From a bacterium (lineage in GTDB: Bacteria > CLD3 > SB21), in contig WBUR01000033.1 in the NCBI GenBank assembly GCA_008933615.1, positions 1 through 46,492 of the forward strand: a stretch of DNA of 46,492 nt. Direction: 5' to 3'. Every line of letters begins with the position of its first letter. Positions within the stretch are counted from its first letter, which is position 1. The translations under genes were made by a program, and so were the position numbers. The notes under the pieces are model-generated. The model saw only the letters and a program-made list of their open reading frames with translations, had not been told where the DNA came from and ran no database searches. Of the stretch, positions 6,442-18,737 are shown piece after piece.

Positions 6442-7572
6442 ATGCCCGATCAATTACCTATCCCCAATCCCGATGTAATACCCGTTCCGGGTGATATCGG
6501 CATGATCCTGTTTTTGCTGTACCTGACGTTTTTTGTTCATGTCGTGTTAATGAATATACTCGTTGGCGGAACTTTTCTAACCTTTGTTTCGGAAATGATC
6601 TCGAAGTTTAGTTCAAATGATCAAAAACGCTCGCTTCACGAACATTTATCGGAAAAATTAGGGCACATCATGCCGTTTATGGTATCCATGACCATTACAT
6701 TCGGTATTGCGCCATTACTATTTGTACAGGGGATTTACGGACAGTTTTTTTATACATCATCGGTGTTGATGGCAACCGTCTGGTTATCGGTAGTCCTGCT
6801 AATTCTCATCGGCTACTACAGTTTATATTTTTACACGCGCGGTTTTGAAAAATATAAGAACCGACGTTATATATTTATTTCCATCAGTATGGTCATGTTT
6901 GCAGTCGTGGCATTTATTTATGTCAATAACCTTACGCTGATGCAAACTCCCCAAAAATGGTTAGCGATCTACACTAATACCAACGGATCAGGCTGGTATT
7001 TAAATACCGACGAGATTACTCTCATTCCCCGTTATCTGCATATTGCGCTTTCTGCCGTGGCGGTTTCCGGATTGCTGGTATTATATCTGGGCATGCGTGA
7101 AAAAACAAATGAACAACTCAAACCATTTGCCATCCGCTGGGGTGCAATATGGTTTATTGTTCCTACTTTGCTGCAAATCGGAGTTGGGCTTTGGTTCTAT
7201 TATGCCATTCCTGAAAATCTTAGATCCATTTTTTCGCAGGGAACTCCGGCGCTTTTATTTCATTCCTCGCATGTCTTGTTCTTTATCGGAACCGTTTGTA
7301 TCGCCCTGTCGGCAATAGGTAAACACAGAAACATAGCCGCATGGTTGGGCATCATTACCGTACTGGTAGGGGTATTAGGAAAAATAATTAACCGCGATCA
7401 ATTACGTCAGGCTTATTTGCGTGAGGTGAATTGGACATTAGACGTACTTAAAACCGCTCCTCAATACGATGTGATCGCGCTGTTTTTTATTTCTCTATTA
7501 GCCGGAATCGGATTGCTTATTTGGGTATTAAGAAAATATCAAAAAGAAGTCAAAGCCAACTCTCCGAAATAA
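6442..7572 (+). CDS. second CydA-like (bd-family) membrane subunit
   Basis: A 376-residue integral membrane protein with about nine helices, start supported by AGAAGGA upstream. The N-terminal helix FFVHVVLMNILVGGTFL places a histidine at about 33 in the same context as the haem-ligand His of CydA proteins. The overall look (paired helices, a soluble loop near 165-195) resembles the neighbouring subunit without the cytochrome c domain. It takes the position where cydB would normally lie, so the two CydA-like proteins probably form a heterodimer. Paired CydA-like subunits are known in the cytochrome bd superfamily. Last gene of the operon; the integron begins about 240 bp downstream. Confidence 0.7.
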   Translation: MPDQLPIPNPDVIPVPGDIGMILFLLYLTFFVHVVLMNILVGGTFLTFVSEMISKFSSNDQKRSLHEHLSEKLGHIMPFMVSMTITFGIAPLLFVQGIYGQFFYTSSVLMATVWLSVVLLILIGYYSLYFYTRGFEKYKNRRYIFISISMVMFAVVAFIYVNNLTLMQTPQKWLAIYTNTNGSGWYLNTDEITLIPRYLHIALSAVAVSGLLVLYLGMREKTNEQLKPFAIRWGAIWFIVPTLLQIGVGLWFYYAIPENLRSIFSQGTPALLFHSSHVLFFIGTVCIALSAIGKHRNIAAWLGIITVLVGVLGKIINRDQLRQAYLREVNWTLDVLKTAPQYDVIALFFISLLAGIGLLIWVLRKYQKEVKANSPK

Positions 7573-9106: not shown

Positions 9107-12100
9107 ATGGAATCAATATTCAAATTCTTACTGCACAGACCAGCAGTACGACAAGAAGAAAATTTAGTCATTAATTTGAGCCAGAACTCAAATTATCAAG
9201 CTGAATTAGCTAAATCAATTGGCAAAGATAATCCAAGAGAAATCTTGAAAACATTATCTAATGATTTTGTAGAAACGAAAAATTTCGTGAAATCAACATT
9301 AGAACTGAAAGTTTATGATAAGCTAATCATATTTCAATCTAAACTTGATGAACTTTCCAAAAAAGCGAATATCACTTCAGATGAAATGAAAAATGCTGTA
9401 AAAGATTCATTTGGTTCAACTGTTGCAACTGTAATAAAGGATAATGATTACATCAATTCAATTAAAAACCTTAAAGACAGTATTATTGCTATCAAACATT
9501 TACAAGAGCTACATGAAAAACCAATTGAGGAACTTACTAATGCCTTAAGGGACTTGGAACTATTAGGTTTAAATTTTCCAAAAACAGGAGTGGAATTAAA
9601 AAAATATAGAAAAAGAGTCCTTAGGCTTCCTTCTCAGGCGGATTTAAAAAGCGTTTTAACTCAAAGAGAAGAGGAAAAAAAGCGACAAGAAGAAATTGAG
9701 CGAAAACAGCTTGAGGAGAAAAAGAAAGAAATTCAAGAAAAAGCAGCATTGTATAGCAAGTTGAAAAATGCTATAAAAGAAATAATGAATTTAGATTATG
9801 GCAACCTCGAATCTACACCACAAAAGGCACATGATGGCTTTATACCCCCAAAAGAAGTAAGACCTTTAAATGTATTTATGGAAAGTATTCAAAGAATGAA
9901 TACATTAGGTCAGTTAGAGATACTAAATGCAAAAACTCAAATTGAAAAAGGGGTAAATGTTAAAAACCCCACATCACCTCAAACTCCATTAATAGAAAGT
10001 AAAACAATTGAAATCCAATCGAAAAGGCAATTTTTTACTGGCGTTGGAGAGTTCAAGCCTGTTTCAGAGTTATCAACCTTATTCAGGTTCAAAGTTGGTA
10101 CAGAGAAAAATCTGTCTGAAAACACTTTAGCATTGCTTAAAGAAAGAAAGCTTAGTATTACAGAAATGGGAATAGATAAAATTATTGCAAGGTTGAAATA
10201 TGAAATGGAAGACTTAGCAAACGAATTAGAATTGTTAACACAAACCCAAAAAACAAATTCAATAAGTCGGATCGGGAGTACCCTTGTAGTAACTTCAATA
10301 CCGATGAAGTCAATGTGGGGGTATTTACCCACATCCGAAGTTTTCCTAAGCCCCAACTTTCAATTTATAGATAATAGAATACCACAGACCAAAGGCAAGG
10401 CAGCCCCATCAGGCCTTGCTGATTTAATCATCGTGAAACAACAGTTAAAAGGCTATGAAGGGCGGGATGTAGCTCATATAGAAAACATATTAAAGGGTGA
10501 GCTTAAATCCAGGGAACACAGAAGATTTAATCAAACTATAAATGATAACTTAATAGAAACAGAAACCATTAAAACAGAAGAAAAAGAATTAGAGACCACC
10601 GATAGATTTGAATTAAGCAGAGAGGCCAGCAAAACAATACAGGAAGAGGCTGCTTTAAAAGCTGGACTTACCATATCAGGGTCTTACGGTCCAACTGTCA
10701 GTTTTTCCGCTAGTGCCGAAGGGTCGTTGAGTACCTCAAAAGAAGAATCCACAAAAATTGCTTCAACTTTCAGTAAAAGCGTAACTCAAAAAAGTGTTGA
10801 AAAACTTACTGAACGAATACTGCAGAGTAACAGGATAATAATAACTACAGAAGTTGAGGAAAAAAACATTCACAAGATAGACAATACAGGAGGAAGTGGC
10901 CACATATCAGGTGTATACCAGTGGGTTGAAAAAGTGTACGAGGCTCAAATGTTTAACTATGGGATGAGGATGATGTTTGATTTTATGATACCCGAGCCGG
11001 GAGCATACCTTGTGGCTGCTATGGAAAAAGCCCATGCCAGTAAATTAGTAATTCAAAAACCAGTTGAATTTACATTACTGCCTAACCAAATTACCGAAAC
11101 TAATTATAATTTTTGGATTCATGCATATGGAGCTGCAGGCATCACCCCACCGCCCGAAGAATACCTTACTAAGTCATTTAACTATAATGCAGGTGGTGGC
11201 GATGAAAAAGCAGACTATCATCATTCAGGCATAATACAAATTGACGAGGGATATCAAGCCATTCAAGCATCAGTTGGTGTGGTTTGTAATCAATGGAGTG
11301 GTAATCGTGTTGTGGATATGGTTATTGGGAGACGAACTCATAGATTTCCTGATGGGGATTGGCTTTGGATTACAAATTTGAATGATGAAAAAGAAAGTAT
11401 TCCGGTGGGATTTAAAACAAATGATGTTTCTGACATTGCATTGGCCCTTGAAGTGAAATGCCAAAGAACAAGTCGAGCTTATAAAAAATGGCAGTTAGAG
11501 ACCCATGGCAAAATAATGGATGCCTATAAAACAAAGGTTGCTGACTATGAAGAAAAGATTGCTGCTGCAGAGATGAGTGCAGGGGTTGAAATACAAGGCA
11601 AAAATCCTGCACTGAATCTTGAAATAATGAAAGATGAATTAAAGAAAAATTGTATTACCATTTTAACAGACCAACATTACAATTTATTCAATTCCATTGA
11701 AAGTAGTTCATATGGATTGCCACAAATAAACTTGTACGAAAACGAGGCAGAAGGCCCATATGTACGCTTTTTTGAACAAGCTTTTGAATGGGAACATATA
11801 ACATGGCTTACATACCCTTATTTCTGGGGAAGAAAAAGTAAGTGGGAAGAAAAGATTGCCTACGATGACCCTGATCCGCTTTTCAATCAATTTATCAAGG
11901 CGGGCTATTGCCGAGTTGTAGTTCCTGTAAGACTTGGCTTTGAAGGGGCAGTAGATCATTTTATGACATTTGGAGAAATATGGAATGGAGGTCCACTTCC
12001 TGCGATTTCAAACGAACTTTATTTACCAATTGCAAATGAATTAGCAGAAAGATTAGACCAACCTGGTGATGAGATCCCGCAAGGTGACCCATGGGAAGTA

Positions 12101-12190
12101 AGAATACCTACAAATTTGGTAAAATTAAGAGCGGACGATCAACTCCCCAATTGGGCAAAAGACGTGAACGGGAATTGGGTTCCATCCTAA
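9107..12190 (+). CDS. large uncharacterised cytoplasmic protein (cassette 1)
   Basis: A 1027-residue protein with no signal peptide and no membrane helices; I do not recognise a characterised family. Residues about 1-180 are helical. About 185-235 is a highly charged Lys/Glu coiled coil (EEEKKRQEEIERKQLEEKKK). About 480-590 is Ser/Thr/Glu-rich with a low-complexity stretch (SGSYGPTVSFSASAEGSLS). About 610-660 holds the conserved-looking YEAQMFNYGMRMMFDFMIPE. The C-terminal about 300 residues are aromatic-rich (WEHITWLTYPYFWGRKSKWE). First gene of a three-gene cassette, 24 bp before a lipoprotein gene. Size, a coiled coil and a secreted partner suggest a structural or toxin-like role, but the function is unknown. 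Such a long gene is unusual in an integron cassette. Confidence 0.8.
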   Translation: MESIFKFLLHRPAVRQEENLVINLSQNSNYQAELAKSIGKDNPREILKTLSNDFVETKNFVKSTLELKVYDKLIIFQSKLDELSKKANITSDEMKNAVKDSFGSTVATVIKDNDYINSIKNLKDSIIAIKHLQELHEKPIEELTNALRDLELLGLNFPKTGVELKKYRKRVLRLPSQADLKSVLTQREEEKKRQEEIERKQLEEKKKEIQEKAALYSKLKNAIKEIMNLDYGNLESTPQKAHDGFIPPKEVRPLNVFMESIQRMNTLGQLEILNAKTQIEKGVNVKNPTSPQTPLIESKTIEIQSKRQFFTGVGEFKPVSELSTLFRFKVGTEKNLSENTLALLKERKLSITEMGIDKIIARLKYEMEDLANELELLTQTQKTNSISRIGSTLVVTSIPMKSMWGYLPTSEVFLSPNFQFIDNRIPQTKGKAAPSGLADLIIVKQQLKGYEGRDVAHIENILKGELKSREHRRFNQTINDNLIETETIKTEEKELETTDRFELSREASKTIQEEAALKAGLTISGSYGPTVSFSASAEGSLSTSKEESTKIASTFSKSVTQKSVEKLTERILQSNRIIITTEVEEKNIHKIDNTGGSGHISGVYQWVEKVYEAQMFNYGMRMMFDFMIPEPGAYLVAAMEKAHASKLVIQKPVEFTLLPNQITETNYNFWIHAYGAAGITPPPEEYLTKSFNYNAGGGDEKADYHHSGIIQIDEGYQAIQASVGVVCNQWSGNRVVDMVIGRRTHRFPDGDWLWITNLNDEKESIPVGFKTNDVSDIALALEVKCQRTSRAYKKWQLETHGKIMDAYKTKVADYEEKIAAAEMSAGVEIQGKNPALNLEIMKDELKKNCITILTDQHYNLFNSIESSSYGLPQINLYENEAEGPYVRFFEQAFEWEHITWLTYPYFWGRKSKWEEKIAYDDPDPLFNQFIKAGYCRVVVPVRLGFEGAVDHFMTFGEIWNGGPLPAISNELYLPIANELAERLDQPGDEIPQGDPWEVRIPTNLVKLRADDQLPNWAKDVNGNWVPS

Positions 12191-13652: not shown

Positions 13653-13701
13653 TAATTCGGTAAAAGTGCAAAATAAATTAACTAAGATTGGAGAAAGCCC
13701 A

Positions 13702-13837
13702 GCCACCAACATCGTATTGGCAATAGTGGGGCTGATAGTTATAAACTCAAGATTTGTGCTTCTATCGGGCATTTGTGCAAATGTTGTGCAGACGTTTTTC
13801 AAATGCCCCACCATCGCCAATACGTAAACGTTGTAGC
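13702..13837 (+). other. attC1, closes cassette 1
   Basis: The left core GCCACCAAC (13702-13710) is the reverse complement of cassette 1's first bases GTTGGTGGC (9042). A long imperfect stem follows: CGTATTGGCAATAGTGGGGC near 13713 pairs with GCCCCACCATCGCCAATACG near 13805, 18 of 20 positions. The right core is AAACGTTGTAGC at 13827-13837. The variable terminal structure lies between. An ORF runs through it, but start choice for the next gene removes that overlap. Confidence 0.82.
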
Positions 13838-14588: not shown

Positions 14589-14727
14589 GTGCTACAACAG
14601 CACCTAAGAAGACATGGGGCGGACAGTGGTTTTCGGATGGTTTGTTCTTCGTGGCTACATTTGTCACAGGCGAATATGAAATCGCTTCGTAATGCCACAC
14701 GTTTCTTAGCTGCCAAACGTTACCTGC
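14589..14727 (+). other. attC2, closes cassette 2
   Basis: The left core GTGCTACAAC (14589-14598) is an exact 10-base reverse complement of the cassette 2 start GTTGTAGCAC (13830). The arms are CAGCACCTAAGAA and TTCTTAGCTGCC, with three unpaired bases on the left arm. The right core is AAACGTTACCTGC (GTT at 14719). The arm motif CAGCACCTAnnAGAA recurs in attC3, so attC2 and attC3 form one subtype. The whole 14513-14769 gap is attC plus short leader; no gene seen. Confidence 0.82.
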
Positions 14728-14769
14728 AAGTGTAACAAAACGACACAACTGACATAAAAGATAGACAAA

Positions 14770-15888
14770 ATGTATTCAATCAATAAGACAGGAATTACGA
14801 AAAGACTTGAGACTTGGCAACTAATAATTCCATTGGTTGACAATTCTGGCAACAAGTTTCCGCAGACCCAAATTGACGAAATTCTTGAAAATATTGGTGT
14901 GACATTTCCCGGTTATACAATGGTAAATTGTATGGGATTTTGGAAAGACCAAACACAAACATACAAGGACGAAAACTTACAGGTAATTATTGATACTCTA
15001 CCAAACGCAAGTGCAGACACTTCTTCATTTTTTAGTAATCTTAAAGACGAGTTGTGCAAAACACTTGGACAAGAAAAAATTTATGTAACGAAAACAGGCG
15101 ACAAAGTAGAACTAATTTCATTCAAAGAGTTTTTTTCTGAATTAGGGTTGGAATTAGAAACCACTAAAAATAGTGACGAAGAAAATTTAAAACTTGCGGG
15201 ACAACTTGTCGCAAACCACGACTTTATCCTAAAACGACTTGCTTACGAAACAGTTGTTTTACAAAGAGACCTGACAAGCAAGAAAATTATTTGGGAAAGA
15301 AAAATTTGTGGTATAAGATTAAGAACAGAATTTGAAGACAATTTTTCCCTAGATGTAATTCTTTGCGGAGCTGACCAACTCAACCAACTTGGAAATGCAA
15401 TTTTCCAAAACAAAGAAATTGTAATCGTAGGCGACTATGAATATCAAAAGTATTTTTTGGAAAAAGTTGCGTATAAGCCAATAGTTGAAGCGAAATTAGG
15501 AAATATAGAAAATGACATAGCATTTACAAACCAACAAGGTAATCCAATTACAACAAAGAAGTTTATTGAATTATTTACTATGACAGTCTTTAGCAATTAT
15601 ATGGTTCTAAGAGAAGAAAATTTTCAATCTTCTGAAATCAAAATTAATGTTGGTCAAGACGGTTCTATGCAAATCGGAGAAAACAAAATAAACGGAAATT
15701 ATTTGTTTCATTGTCCAGCTATAATAAAAAGCAAAGAAGTTCAGAAATTAATTTTGGTTTGCCTAAACCAAGCCATCTCACAATATGAAAACAATCAATT
15801 AGACACTATTGCTTTGTTGCAAACTAAAGCAAGGACAAAATATGTAAAGAATAGAGCAATGGTAAGAAATATGATAAATAACAGATAG
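14770..15888 (+). CDS. uncharacterised protein next to a tRNA-like RNA (cassette 3)
   Basis: A 372-residue soluble protein; no family recognised. There is no signal peptide or membrane helix. The middle (residues about 150-240) alternates short strands and helices (QLVANHDFILKRLAYETVVL, CGIRLRTEF). The C-terminus is strongly basic (TKARTKYVKNRAMVRNMINN), which could bind RNA. First gene of a two-gene cassette whose 129-bp intergenic gap is almost filled by a tRNA-like structure; a HEPN-type protein gene follows. The start is supported by its place 43 bp after the cassette core and by the next upstream ATG being absent. A role as partner or regulator of the HEPN protein is inference from order alone. 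Confidence 0.78.
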   Translation: MYSINKTGITKRLETWQLIIPLVDNSGNKFPQTQIDEILENIGVTFPGYTMVNCMGFWKDQTQTYKDENLQVIIDTLPNASADTSSFFSNLKDELCKTLGQEKIYVTKTGDKVELISFKEFFSELGLELETTKNSDEENLKLAGQLVANHDFILKRLAYETVVLQRDLTSKKIIWERKICGIRLRTEFEDNFSLDVILCGADQLNQLGNAIFQNKEIVIVGDYEYQKYFLEKVAYKPIVEAKLGNIENDIAFTNQQGNPITTKKFIELFTMTVFSNYMVLREENFQSSEIKINVGQDGSMQIGENKINGNYLFHCPAIIKSKEVQKLILVCLNQAISQYENNQLDTIALLQTKARTKYVKNRAMVRNMINNR

Positions 15889-15905
15889 TTAAAACCATAT
15901 AAAAA

Positions 15906-16005
15906 GAAGGATAAGCATTGCTGGTGATGCACAGGTATCAACGTGTGTTCGGACAAGGAACCCAAGTTAATGCCTGGCAGGTAGGTTCGAGACCTACATC
16001 CTTCA
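15906..16005 (+). ncRNA. tRNA-like RNA with elongated anticodon arm
   Basis: A 100-nt cloverleaf-like structure. Acceptor stem GAAGGAT (15906-15912) with ATCCTTC (15998-16004) is a perfect 7 bp, discriminator A at 16005. After a two-base linker comes the D-arm: GCAT/ATGC with the 8-nt loop TGCTGGTG, which holds the conserved GG. The T-arm is GTAGG/CCTAC (15981-15997) with loop TTCGAGA, adjacent to the acceptor. Between a single base and a 4-base variable loop lies a long hairpin (15932-15976): 19 paired positions (15 Watson-Crick, one wobble, three mismatches) and a 7-nt loop GGACAAG. No T33 or credible anticodon is present and no CCA is encoded. Hence a tRNA mimic, not a decoding tRNA. Confidence 0.65.
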
Positions 16006-16017
16006 CAAAAGACAGAA

Positions 16018-16767
16018 ATGATAAGAAGAACAGCTTCATATACAACATTGCAAACGCAAATCCAATCAATATTTGACTTTGCAGTTGTTGTGTGCCATTC
16101 CGTTCCTGCTTTAAAACTGCAAATGAAACTTTTGGACGATGGCAAAATCACTAAACTTCCTGACCCCGATTATTTTGAAGCAAATAATCCAACAACAAAA
16201 CTGAGAGAACAAGCAGACGGCTATAAGGACAAATTGGCGACTTATCTTTTTCTAAGTTCGTTTGCCTTTTTTGAAAACTATTTAGGAAGTGCTTTAAAAG
16301 AAGTTCTTGAATTAAGTGTCACTATCCCTGAAAAATCAGCCTTAAAAAGTAGTTTGACAAATAACACGAATACAAAACCAAAGAAAATTTTGCGTAGCAG
16401 TTTTGACCAAAGACACCTTCAACGATACGACAAATATTCAAGAGAACTGGATGCGACAAATTATATTCATCCTGACAGTTTAGTTTCAATTATATCAGTA
16501 GAAAATCTTCTCAAGACCATAATGGATTTAAAAGCAAATCAAATCCCTGACTTTTTAGTTAACACAATTAAAATGGACATTTTAGAAGCAGACAAAAATT
16601 CTTTTGGAACTTACCGACAATTAAGGAATGACATTGCACACGGTGACAATCCGACTGTTACTATGCGGAAAGTTAAGGAGGCAAATAAGTTTTTACGAAA
16701 GTTTGCAACTCATATTGACGAGTTTTTAATGGAACATTATGTAAAAATTGACAACTATAAACGATGA
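16018..16767 (+). CDS. HEPN-domain protein, putative ribonuclease (cassette 3)
   Basis: A 249-residue helical protein with the HEPN signature near its C-terminus: RQLRNDIAHGDNP, giving R203-x4-H208, the RNA-cleavage motif of HEPN nucleases. An upstream helix LFLSSFAFFENYLGSALKE (about 77-95) matches the RiboL-PSP/MAE_28990-type HEPN layout. There is no signal peptide, so it is cytoplasmic. HEPN RNases are common toxins and defence effectors, several of which cut tRNA anticodon loops. It starts 12 bases after a tRNA-like RNA in the same cassette, so that RNA may be its inhibitor, substrate or sensor (inference). No clear Shine-Dalgarno sequence precedes the ATG. attC3 begins 17 bp downstream. 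Confidence 0.8.
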   Translation: MIRRTASYTTLQTQIQSIFDFAVVVCHSVPALKLQMKLLDDGKITKLPDPDYFEANNPTTKLREQADGYKDKLATYLFLSSFAFFENYLGSALKEVLELSVTIPEKSALKSSLTNNTNTKPKKILRSSFDQRHLQRYDKYSRELDATNYIHPDSLVSIISVENLLKTIMDLKANQIPDFLVNTIKMDILEADKNSFGTYRQLRNDIAHGDNPTVTMRKVKEANKFLRKFATHIDEFLMEHYVKIDNYKR

Positions 16768-16784
16768 CAGACGATAAAACACCA

Positions 16785-16921
16785 GCAGGTAACAGCACCT
16801 ACAAGAAATTGGCGGTTCAGTGGTTAAATGAAACGTTGTGCCTCGTATCAAACTTAATAATGGCAGACAGTTTACGTCTCCGAAATCGCCAACTTCTTGT
16901 AGCTGCAAACCGTTATCTGAC
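16785..16921 (+). other. attC3, closes cassette 3
   Basis: The left core GCAGGTAAC (16785-16793) is the exact reverse complement of the cassette 3 start GTTACCTGC (14719-14727). This proves that both protein genes and the tRNA-like RNA lie in one 2193-bp cassette. The arms are CTACAAGAAATTGGCG and CGCCAACTTCTTGTAG, one mismatch, with unpaired bases between core and stem. The right core is GTTATCTGAC at 16912. Confidence 0.84.
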
Positions 16922-16944
16922 ATCCGCCTGGAAGGAAATACGAC

Positions 16945-17572: not shown

Positions 17573-17692
17573 GTCAGATAAGAGATTGTGGGCGTCGCTC
17601 GCCAGTAGCTCGCTCACGACTTAGAATGTTCTTAATTAACTTTAATTTCTCGCGTGCGAGCTACTGCGTGTAGCCGCCGAGCGTTACCAGCA
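17573..17692 (+). other. attC4, closes cassette 4
   Basis: The left core GTCAGATAAG (17573-17582) complements the cassette 4 start GTTATCTGAC at 9 of 10 bases; the change is in the last base of the usually invariant AAC. Complementarity extends upstream: CAGGCGGACGTCAGATAAG (17564-17582) matches the first 19 bases of the cassette in 17 positions. The stem is CAGTAGCTCGC/GCGAGCTACTG (11 bp, exact). The right core is GTTACCAGCA at 17683. No further gene is seen between 17560 and 17757. Confidence 0.78.
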
Positions 17693-17757
17693 ATGTTAGA
17701 CAACCGGGCTCAATCACGACTGACTACGATTTCAAAGATAGAATTAAAACATGCGAT

Positions 17758-18572: not shown

Positions 18573-18600
18573 CAGATACATTGACGAAAGACAGAAACAC

Positions 18601-18737
18601 TGCTGGTAACAGCGGTTTTGCGTCAGGCGGGGTGACGTGGTAAATTAGACATCAGTTCTTTTTATTAACTTTGGTGCAAGGTTGAAAGTTTGTGCTTCTA
18701 ATCCCGCCCGAACGCAAAGCCCGAAAACGTTATGCGA
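18601..18737 (+). other. attC5, closes cassette 5 and the array
   Basis: The left core TGCTGGTAAC (18601-18610) is the exact reverse complement of the cassette 5 start GTTACCAGCA (17683-17692). The arms TTTTGCGTCAGGCGGG and CCCGCCCGAACGCAAAG pair with one extra, unpaired base, as in the extrahelical bases attC sites need for strand choice. The right core is AACGTTATGC (GTT at 18729). No complement of that core is seen downstream, so the array ends here. 18738-18887 is host leader with no gene seen. Confidence 0.84.

Follow-up and report, generated by a model that had tools for sequence, protein, structure and literature searches.

The window, by which we mean the whole 46,492-nucleotide stretch of bacterial DNA analysed here, carries a tRNA-like RNA on its forward strand at positions 15906-16005, as judged from its fold, from cloverleaf scans, from homologues and from covariation. 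It lies between two open reading frames of the same strand. The upstream frame (14770-15888, including the stop codon) encodes 372 aa, and the downstream frame (16018-16767), whose ATG lies 12 nt past the RNA end, encodes a 249 aa HEPN RNase of the HEPN_RiboL-PSP family. The RNA fills 100 of the 129 bases of the gap, which is the figure given in the original prediction, and the cloverleaf parts listed there are all present. They comprise an acceptor stem of seven Watson-Crick pairs (GAAGGAT, 15906-15912, with ATCCTTC, 15998-16004) followed by the discriminator A at 16005, a D-arm (15915-15930, GCAT-TGCTGGTG-ATGC) holding the equivalent of G18G19, a 4-nt variable loop (GCAG) and a T-arm (15981-15997, GTAGG-TTCGAGA-CCTAC), with AA at positions 8-9 and A at position 26. 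The anticodon arm is replaced by an extended 45-nt hairpin (15932-15976) with the sequence CAGGTATCAACGTGTGTTC-GGACAAG-GAACCCAAGTTAATGCCTG and it reads as claimed, with 19 opposed positions, three mismatches (C.A, G.A and U.C), one U.G wobble and the 7-nt loop GGACAAG at 15951-15957.

The window RNA has a minimum free energy of -37.9 kcal/mol (z -3.96) that was equalled by none of 200 shuffled sequences. Its free fold retains the acceptor stem, the T-arm and the long hairpin and gives another D-arm, so that the D-arm rests on comparison between relatives. A cloverleaf scan with a free anticodon-arm length (17 to 70 nt) matched the window at this RNA only. Random sequence of the same dinucleotide make-up yielded nine matches in 853 Mb, even under a filter looser than the cloverleaf of the window RNA itself, and all nine had wobble pairs in the acceptor stem while seven had a 3-bp D-stem. 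A chance origin had been called unlikely in the original prediction. ARAGORN in its default mode and Rfam at gathering cut-offs gave no match on the window RNA; with introns allowed, ARAGORN recovered the same tRNA body and called an anticodon TTA with a 28-nt "intron".

The HEPN protein of the window matches PF18735 with an E value of 2.4e-13 and 50.8 bits (Pfam gathering score 28.4), and Ribo L-PSP-HEPN has been counted among the distant relatives of AbiF/AbiD (PMC3710099). Its Rx4H motif is RNDIAH (residues 203-208), of which R203 and H208 are invariant among 20 diverse HEPN proteins. When an AlphaFold model of the protein (mean pLDDT 77.5) was compared with the PDB, all matches had E > 0.6 and none was meaningful, so that this search provides no structural link to AbiF or Cas13; sequence searches of the PDB found none.

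Five relatives of the window HEPN were found, sharing 87, 80, 62, 34 and 34% identity with it. The three closest, all from Bacteroidota, were located by scanning GTDB contigs with the window protein and occur in Dyadobacter sp. SG02 (L060, 87%), a Chitinophagales MAG (L059, 80%) and Paucihalobacter ruber (L061, 62%). Each carries the tRNA-like RNA immediately upstream of the HEPN gene, at L060:4890-4989, L059:4888-4987 and L061:4889-4987, respectively. At L069 (G890), which encodes a 314 aa HEPN (34%), the RNA lies on the minus strand (L069:1501-1600) and the HEPN gene starts 11 nt downstream. L072 (G1161), with a 270 aa HEPN (34%), was found with a HEPN alignment search of 175 genomes of the order containing the Chitinophagales MAG, and here the RNA (L072:2312-2410) lies directly downstream of the gene, sharing bases with its stop codon. 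The RNA therefore adjoins the HEPN gene in all six members of the subfamily, being upstream in four of the five relatives and downstream in one, and in five of the six loci, the window included, its end lies 11-13 nt before the HEPN start.

This unit is conserved where its surroundings are not. By blastn, the DNA similarity between the window and the Dyadobacter locus extends over 15896-16784 of the forward strand (83% over 889 columns), covering the RNA and the HEPN gene and nothing else, and it begins at 15899 against L059 and at 15901 against L061. In a scan of 170 genomes from the family to which Dyadobacter belongs, a covariance model of four RNAs matched two places, L060 and L069 (47.9 bits), and both lie beside a HEPN gene of the subfamily; minus-strand matches of the model were discarded as mirror images of a palindromic structure. 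At 23 loci encoding HEPN_RiboL-PSP proteins outside the subfamily the model had no match, nor did a loose cloverleaf scan of such loci give a convincing cloverleaf adjoining the gene. Searching 395 Bacteroidota genomes for the HEPN protein returned only the Dyadobacter locus already known, and the RNA-HEPN system, with six members in total, is thus rare. Phages, plasmids and viral contigs yielded no relatives of the window HEPN, nor did plasmids and viral contigs yield the RNA. The nine genomes of the window's own phylum held no further copy, and one ordinary tRNA-Lys appeared there as a weak match; a likeness to the host tRNA-Lys in the T-arm was not counted as evidence of identity because the acceptor stems differ between members. 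An alignment of diverse HEPN family members was also tried as a search query and dropped as too divergent.

Four of the five relatives (L059, L060, L061 and L072) exceed the PF18735 gathering score, L069 falls below it, and the remaining Pfam matches of the six proteins are weak ones to PF18737 and DUF4145. The catalytic arginine and histidine are kept in all six. The RNA-linked subfamily has its own N-terminal stretch, FDFAVVV..P..K....LPDPDYF, which is missing from the other aligned HEPN_RiboL-PSP members and is a candidate for the RNA-binding part of the protein.

A search for homologues with compensatory changes had been set beforehand as the check on the fold, and the stems proved to be conserved with such changes. 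Among four RNAs 92% of the stem cells pair and three pairs have both partners altered; a shift of the partner strand by one to three columns lowers the pairing to 29-44%. For all six RNAs, aligned by eye one structural element at a time, a procedure that leans towards the structure, 129 of 132 cells of the acceptor, D, basal limb and T stems are paired and 15 of 22 pairs show a double change. Exchange of whole 3' strands among the six RNAs reached the observed pairing in nine of 2000 permutations, a count that includes the identity and swaps of near-identical rows. The D-loop GG is present and the T-loop TTCGA is invariant in every member, with double changes in two of four D-stem pairs and three of five T-stem pairs, while acceptor stem sequences differ. 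The extended limb has the same length and stem in the window, L059, L060 and L061. It comprises 46 nt with helices of 6, 4 and 6 bp in L072, whose RNA folds freely into the full cloverleaf, and 45 nt with a 5-bp basal stem and a weak inner hairpin in L069, such that the outer limb forms a long hairpin in five of the six. The canonical U8-A14 tertiary pair is A8-U14 in the window (15913 and 15919) and in L060, and U8-A14 in L069 and L072.

Bacteroidota-type -7 boxes (TAnnTTTG) occur upstream of the RNA in L059, L061 and L069, at distances from 14 to about 200 nt, the nearest being that of L069 (TAAATTTG, 14 nt before the RNA); neither the window nor L060 showed a clear promoter in front of the RNA. 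In L072 a -7 box precedes another structured element, situated before the HEPN gene (L072:1334-1483, forward strand). This element is 150 nt long with a closing helix of 9-10 bp, a cloverleaf-like free fold (z -4.77) and a T-arm-like TGCGAGT loop, and it matches neither the RNA model nor Rfam. The Paucihalobacter module is followed by a GmrSD_N (DUF262) gene and by a gene of weak similarity to HEPN_Swt1 (L061:5861-6862 and 6970-7473), a defence-like setting.

The original prediction placed the RNA between two ORFs of one cassette, and this view now has to be divided: the RNA and the downstream HEPN gene constitute a conserved unit, and the 372 aa ORF falls outside it. The latter is absent from the upstream DNA of the relatives, and searches of GTDB contigs, viral contigs, plasmids and 386 genomes turned up no protein related to it, so that it is a passenger; a partnership between it and the RNA was dropped on the same grounds. 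Its N-terminal residues 17-110 weakly match phrog_3543 (E 4.6e-7), a family of unknown function found in Staphylococcus phages, and it shows a weak similarity to DUF3574. Long imperfect hairpins ending in CGTTR (13700-13835, 14590-14735, 16785-16925, 17585-17700 and 18600-18735) alternate with small ORFs on the same strand in a manner resembling an integron cassette array, and a stretch similar to window positions 16807-16915 also follows the HEPN gene in L069 (positions 406-514). Further upstream, at 9107-12190, the window encodes a 1027 aa protein that neither Pfam nor NCBIfam places convincingly in a family.

The HEPN toxin AbiF is neutralised through direct binding by an RNA of about 100 nt that is encoded just upstream and co-transcribed (PMC12373285); a review describes the protein as an RNase, names its RNA antitoxin AbiFr and places AbiF at the root of Cas13 (PMC12737573). 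Since the present module shares the anatomy of AbiF, with a different RNA, we favour the interpretation, which on balance we hold to be probable, that the tRNA-shaped RNA is an antitoxin for the HEPN RNase and works as in AbiF/AbiFr. The two would then form a toxin/RNA-antitoxin module of two components, in which the protein, a HEPN endoribonuclease, has its Rx4H motif intact. They would be transcribed together, and the RNA ends coincide with the expected cleavage points of RNase P and RNase Z, so that processing by these enzymes would provide many RNAs per toxin. Both such maturation and a nuclease that recognises tRNA-like shapes, with tRNA as its presumed target, are suggested by the tRNA fold. 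The RNA may bind the HEPN protein through the tRNA elbow and acceptor together with the long duplex of the anticodon limb and thereby inhibit the nuclease, perhaps as a mimic of its substrate in which the cleavable anticodon loop has been replaced. Should the RNA level drop below that of the toxin, as might happen if a phage shut off transcription or attacked tRNA-like RNAs, the nuclease would be freed and presumably become toxic.

Several results argue for an antitoxin: the presence of the adjoining RNA in every subfamily member and the limitation of the DNA similarity to the RNA and HEPN gene; the occurrence of RNA model matches in 170 genomes only beside such a gene, and the absence of the RNA at 23 loci from the rest of the HEPN_RiboL-PSP family; the covariation of the stems and the retention of R203 and H208; and the -7 box close to the RNA in L069. 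Against it are the failure of Pfam Abi_2 and RF03085 to match and of the HEPN model to find a meaningful PDB counterpart, the second structured element in L072, which is also a candidate RNA at that locus, and the lack, in the window and L060, of a clear promoter preceding the RNA.

It is possible, with a lower probability, that the RNA represents a new class of antitoxin derived from a tRNA and acts as a decoy, its anticodon arm having been exchanged for a long hairpin so that an anticodon-cutting HEPN nuclease would bind it without productive cleavage. As the decoy would mature by the host tRNA pathway, a phage acting against either tRNAs or this route would remove it and free the nuclease.

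The main rival of the RNA antitoxin, which we consider unlikely, is a cis-acting operator, whereby the HEPN protein or a tRNA enzyme would bind the tRNA-like fold and repress translation of the HEPN gene, and a tRNA-like leader is known to control E. coli thrS. Processing by RNase P and RNase Z would, in addition, sever the mRNA of the toxin. The short distance of 11-13 nt from RNA to HEPN start in five loci would suit such a leader, as would the separate structured element upstream of the gene in L072, and both roles are compatible and could operate together. However, the matching RNA of L072 sits downstream of the gene, which fits a trans-acting RNA better than a leader. Moreover, a leader would have no need to retain a complete cloverleaf with T-loop, G18G19 and acceptor stem.

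We regard it as more doubtful still that the RNA is a positive cofactor or guide by which the HEPN protein recognises a target RNA or a phage signal. In its favour, AbiF/AbiFr is considered to be the root of Cas13 and its crRNA (PMC12737573), and the apical loop of the long hairpin differs between members. The hairpin stem, however, is conserved among the close members, and there is neither a repeat array nor a variable, spacer-like segment long enough to be useful.

It is very improbable that the RNA is a suppressor tRNA or a decoding tRNA interrupted by an unusual intron (28 nt according to ARAGORN, with the anticodon TTA). The acceptor, D- and T-arms with GG and TTCRA loop signatures occur in all six RNAs, ARAGORN with introns fits a tRNA body to each of them, and the L069 RNA, alone among the six, exceeds the Rfam tRNA cut-off (RF00005, 48.9 bits against 29). 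Nevertheless, no anticodon loop is retained. The long limb, a continuous hairpin in five members, takes the place of a loop of 7 nt with U33 and a constant anticodon. The implied anticodons are inconsistent (TTA in three members, then TAC, GAC and CAT), their insertion points move (34, 31, 36 and 40), acceptor stems vary, and strict linkage to a single HEPN gene would be unexpected for a tRNA. Because the would-be anticodon is not conserved, the RNA does not appear to be a decoding tRNA, and with the acceptor stems synthetase identity, too, probably differs between members. The only Rfam match over the window RNA up to E 10 was to tRNA-Sec (RF01852), and this identity was rejected as weak at 21 bits, compared with the 47 needed. 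The absence of a normal anticodon, asserted from the window alone, is thus borne out, and what was called a tRNA mimic is better read as tRNA-derived or tRNA-shaped, since one member passes the tRNA cut-off. Least credible of all is that the hairpin is an integron attC-like recombination site or a remnant of the cassette-like array in which the gene sits. The CGTTR hairpins mark the ends of the cassette (about 14590-14735 and 16785-16925) rather than the position of the RNA, which has been conserved together with its gene despite differing neighbours and carries tRNA T-loop and D-loop sequences in all six loci.

Among known systems, AbiF/AbiFr (RCd22) is similar in combining a HEPN RNase carrying the Rx4H motif with an adjacent structured RNA of about 100 nt, mostly just upstream. 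The present module differs in that its RNA forms a full tRNA cloverleaf whose anticodon limb is extended and its protein belongs to PF18735, the six HEPN proteins having no Abi_2 match at E 0.01 and the window and its five relatives no match to the abiF RNA motif RF03085 at gathering. Type III toxin-antitoxin systems (ToxIN, CptIN and TenpIN) also unite an RNA, encoded upstream, with an endoribonuclease, whereas the RNA here is a single 100-nt element lacking tandem repeats and the protein is of the HEPN family rather than the ToxN fold. HEPN/MNT (type VII) systems pair a HEPN toxin with an adjacent partner, which here is an RNA, and the neighbouring genes scanned contained no MNT nucleotidyltransferase. 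Within HEPN_RiboL-PSP the subfamily stands apart by its N-terminal stretch and its RNA. The RNA resembles tRNA and tRNA-Sec in its acceptor, D- and T-arms and is distinguished by a limb of 45-46 nt in place of the anticodon arm and by its tie to one protein gene.

By sequence, then, the module falls outside AbiF, and by RNA architecture outside type III. If the inferred function holds, it works in the manner of both with a new class of RNA. To our knowledge, known RNA antitoxins are short repeats or the abiF-type motif, and a literature search of open-licence papers, which is no proof of absence, found no description of a tRNA-like or tRNA-mimic antitoxin, in agreement with the earlier statement that no such family had been described. 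A complete tRNA fold without its anticodon would then have been recruited as the partner of a HEPN RNase toxin, hinting at what HEPN nucleases of this kind recognise and making tRNA-processing enzymes possible players in defence, and the module would represent a second RNA-bound lineage, beside AbiF, in the HEPN group thought to have given rise to Cas13.
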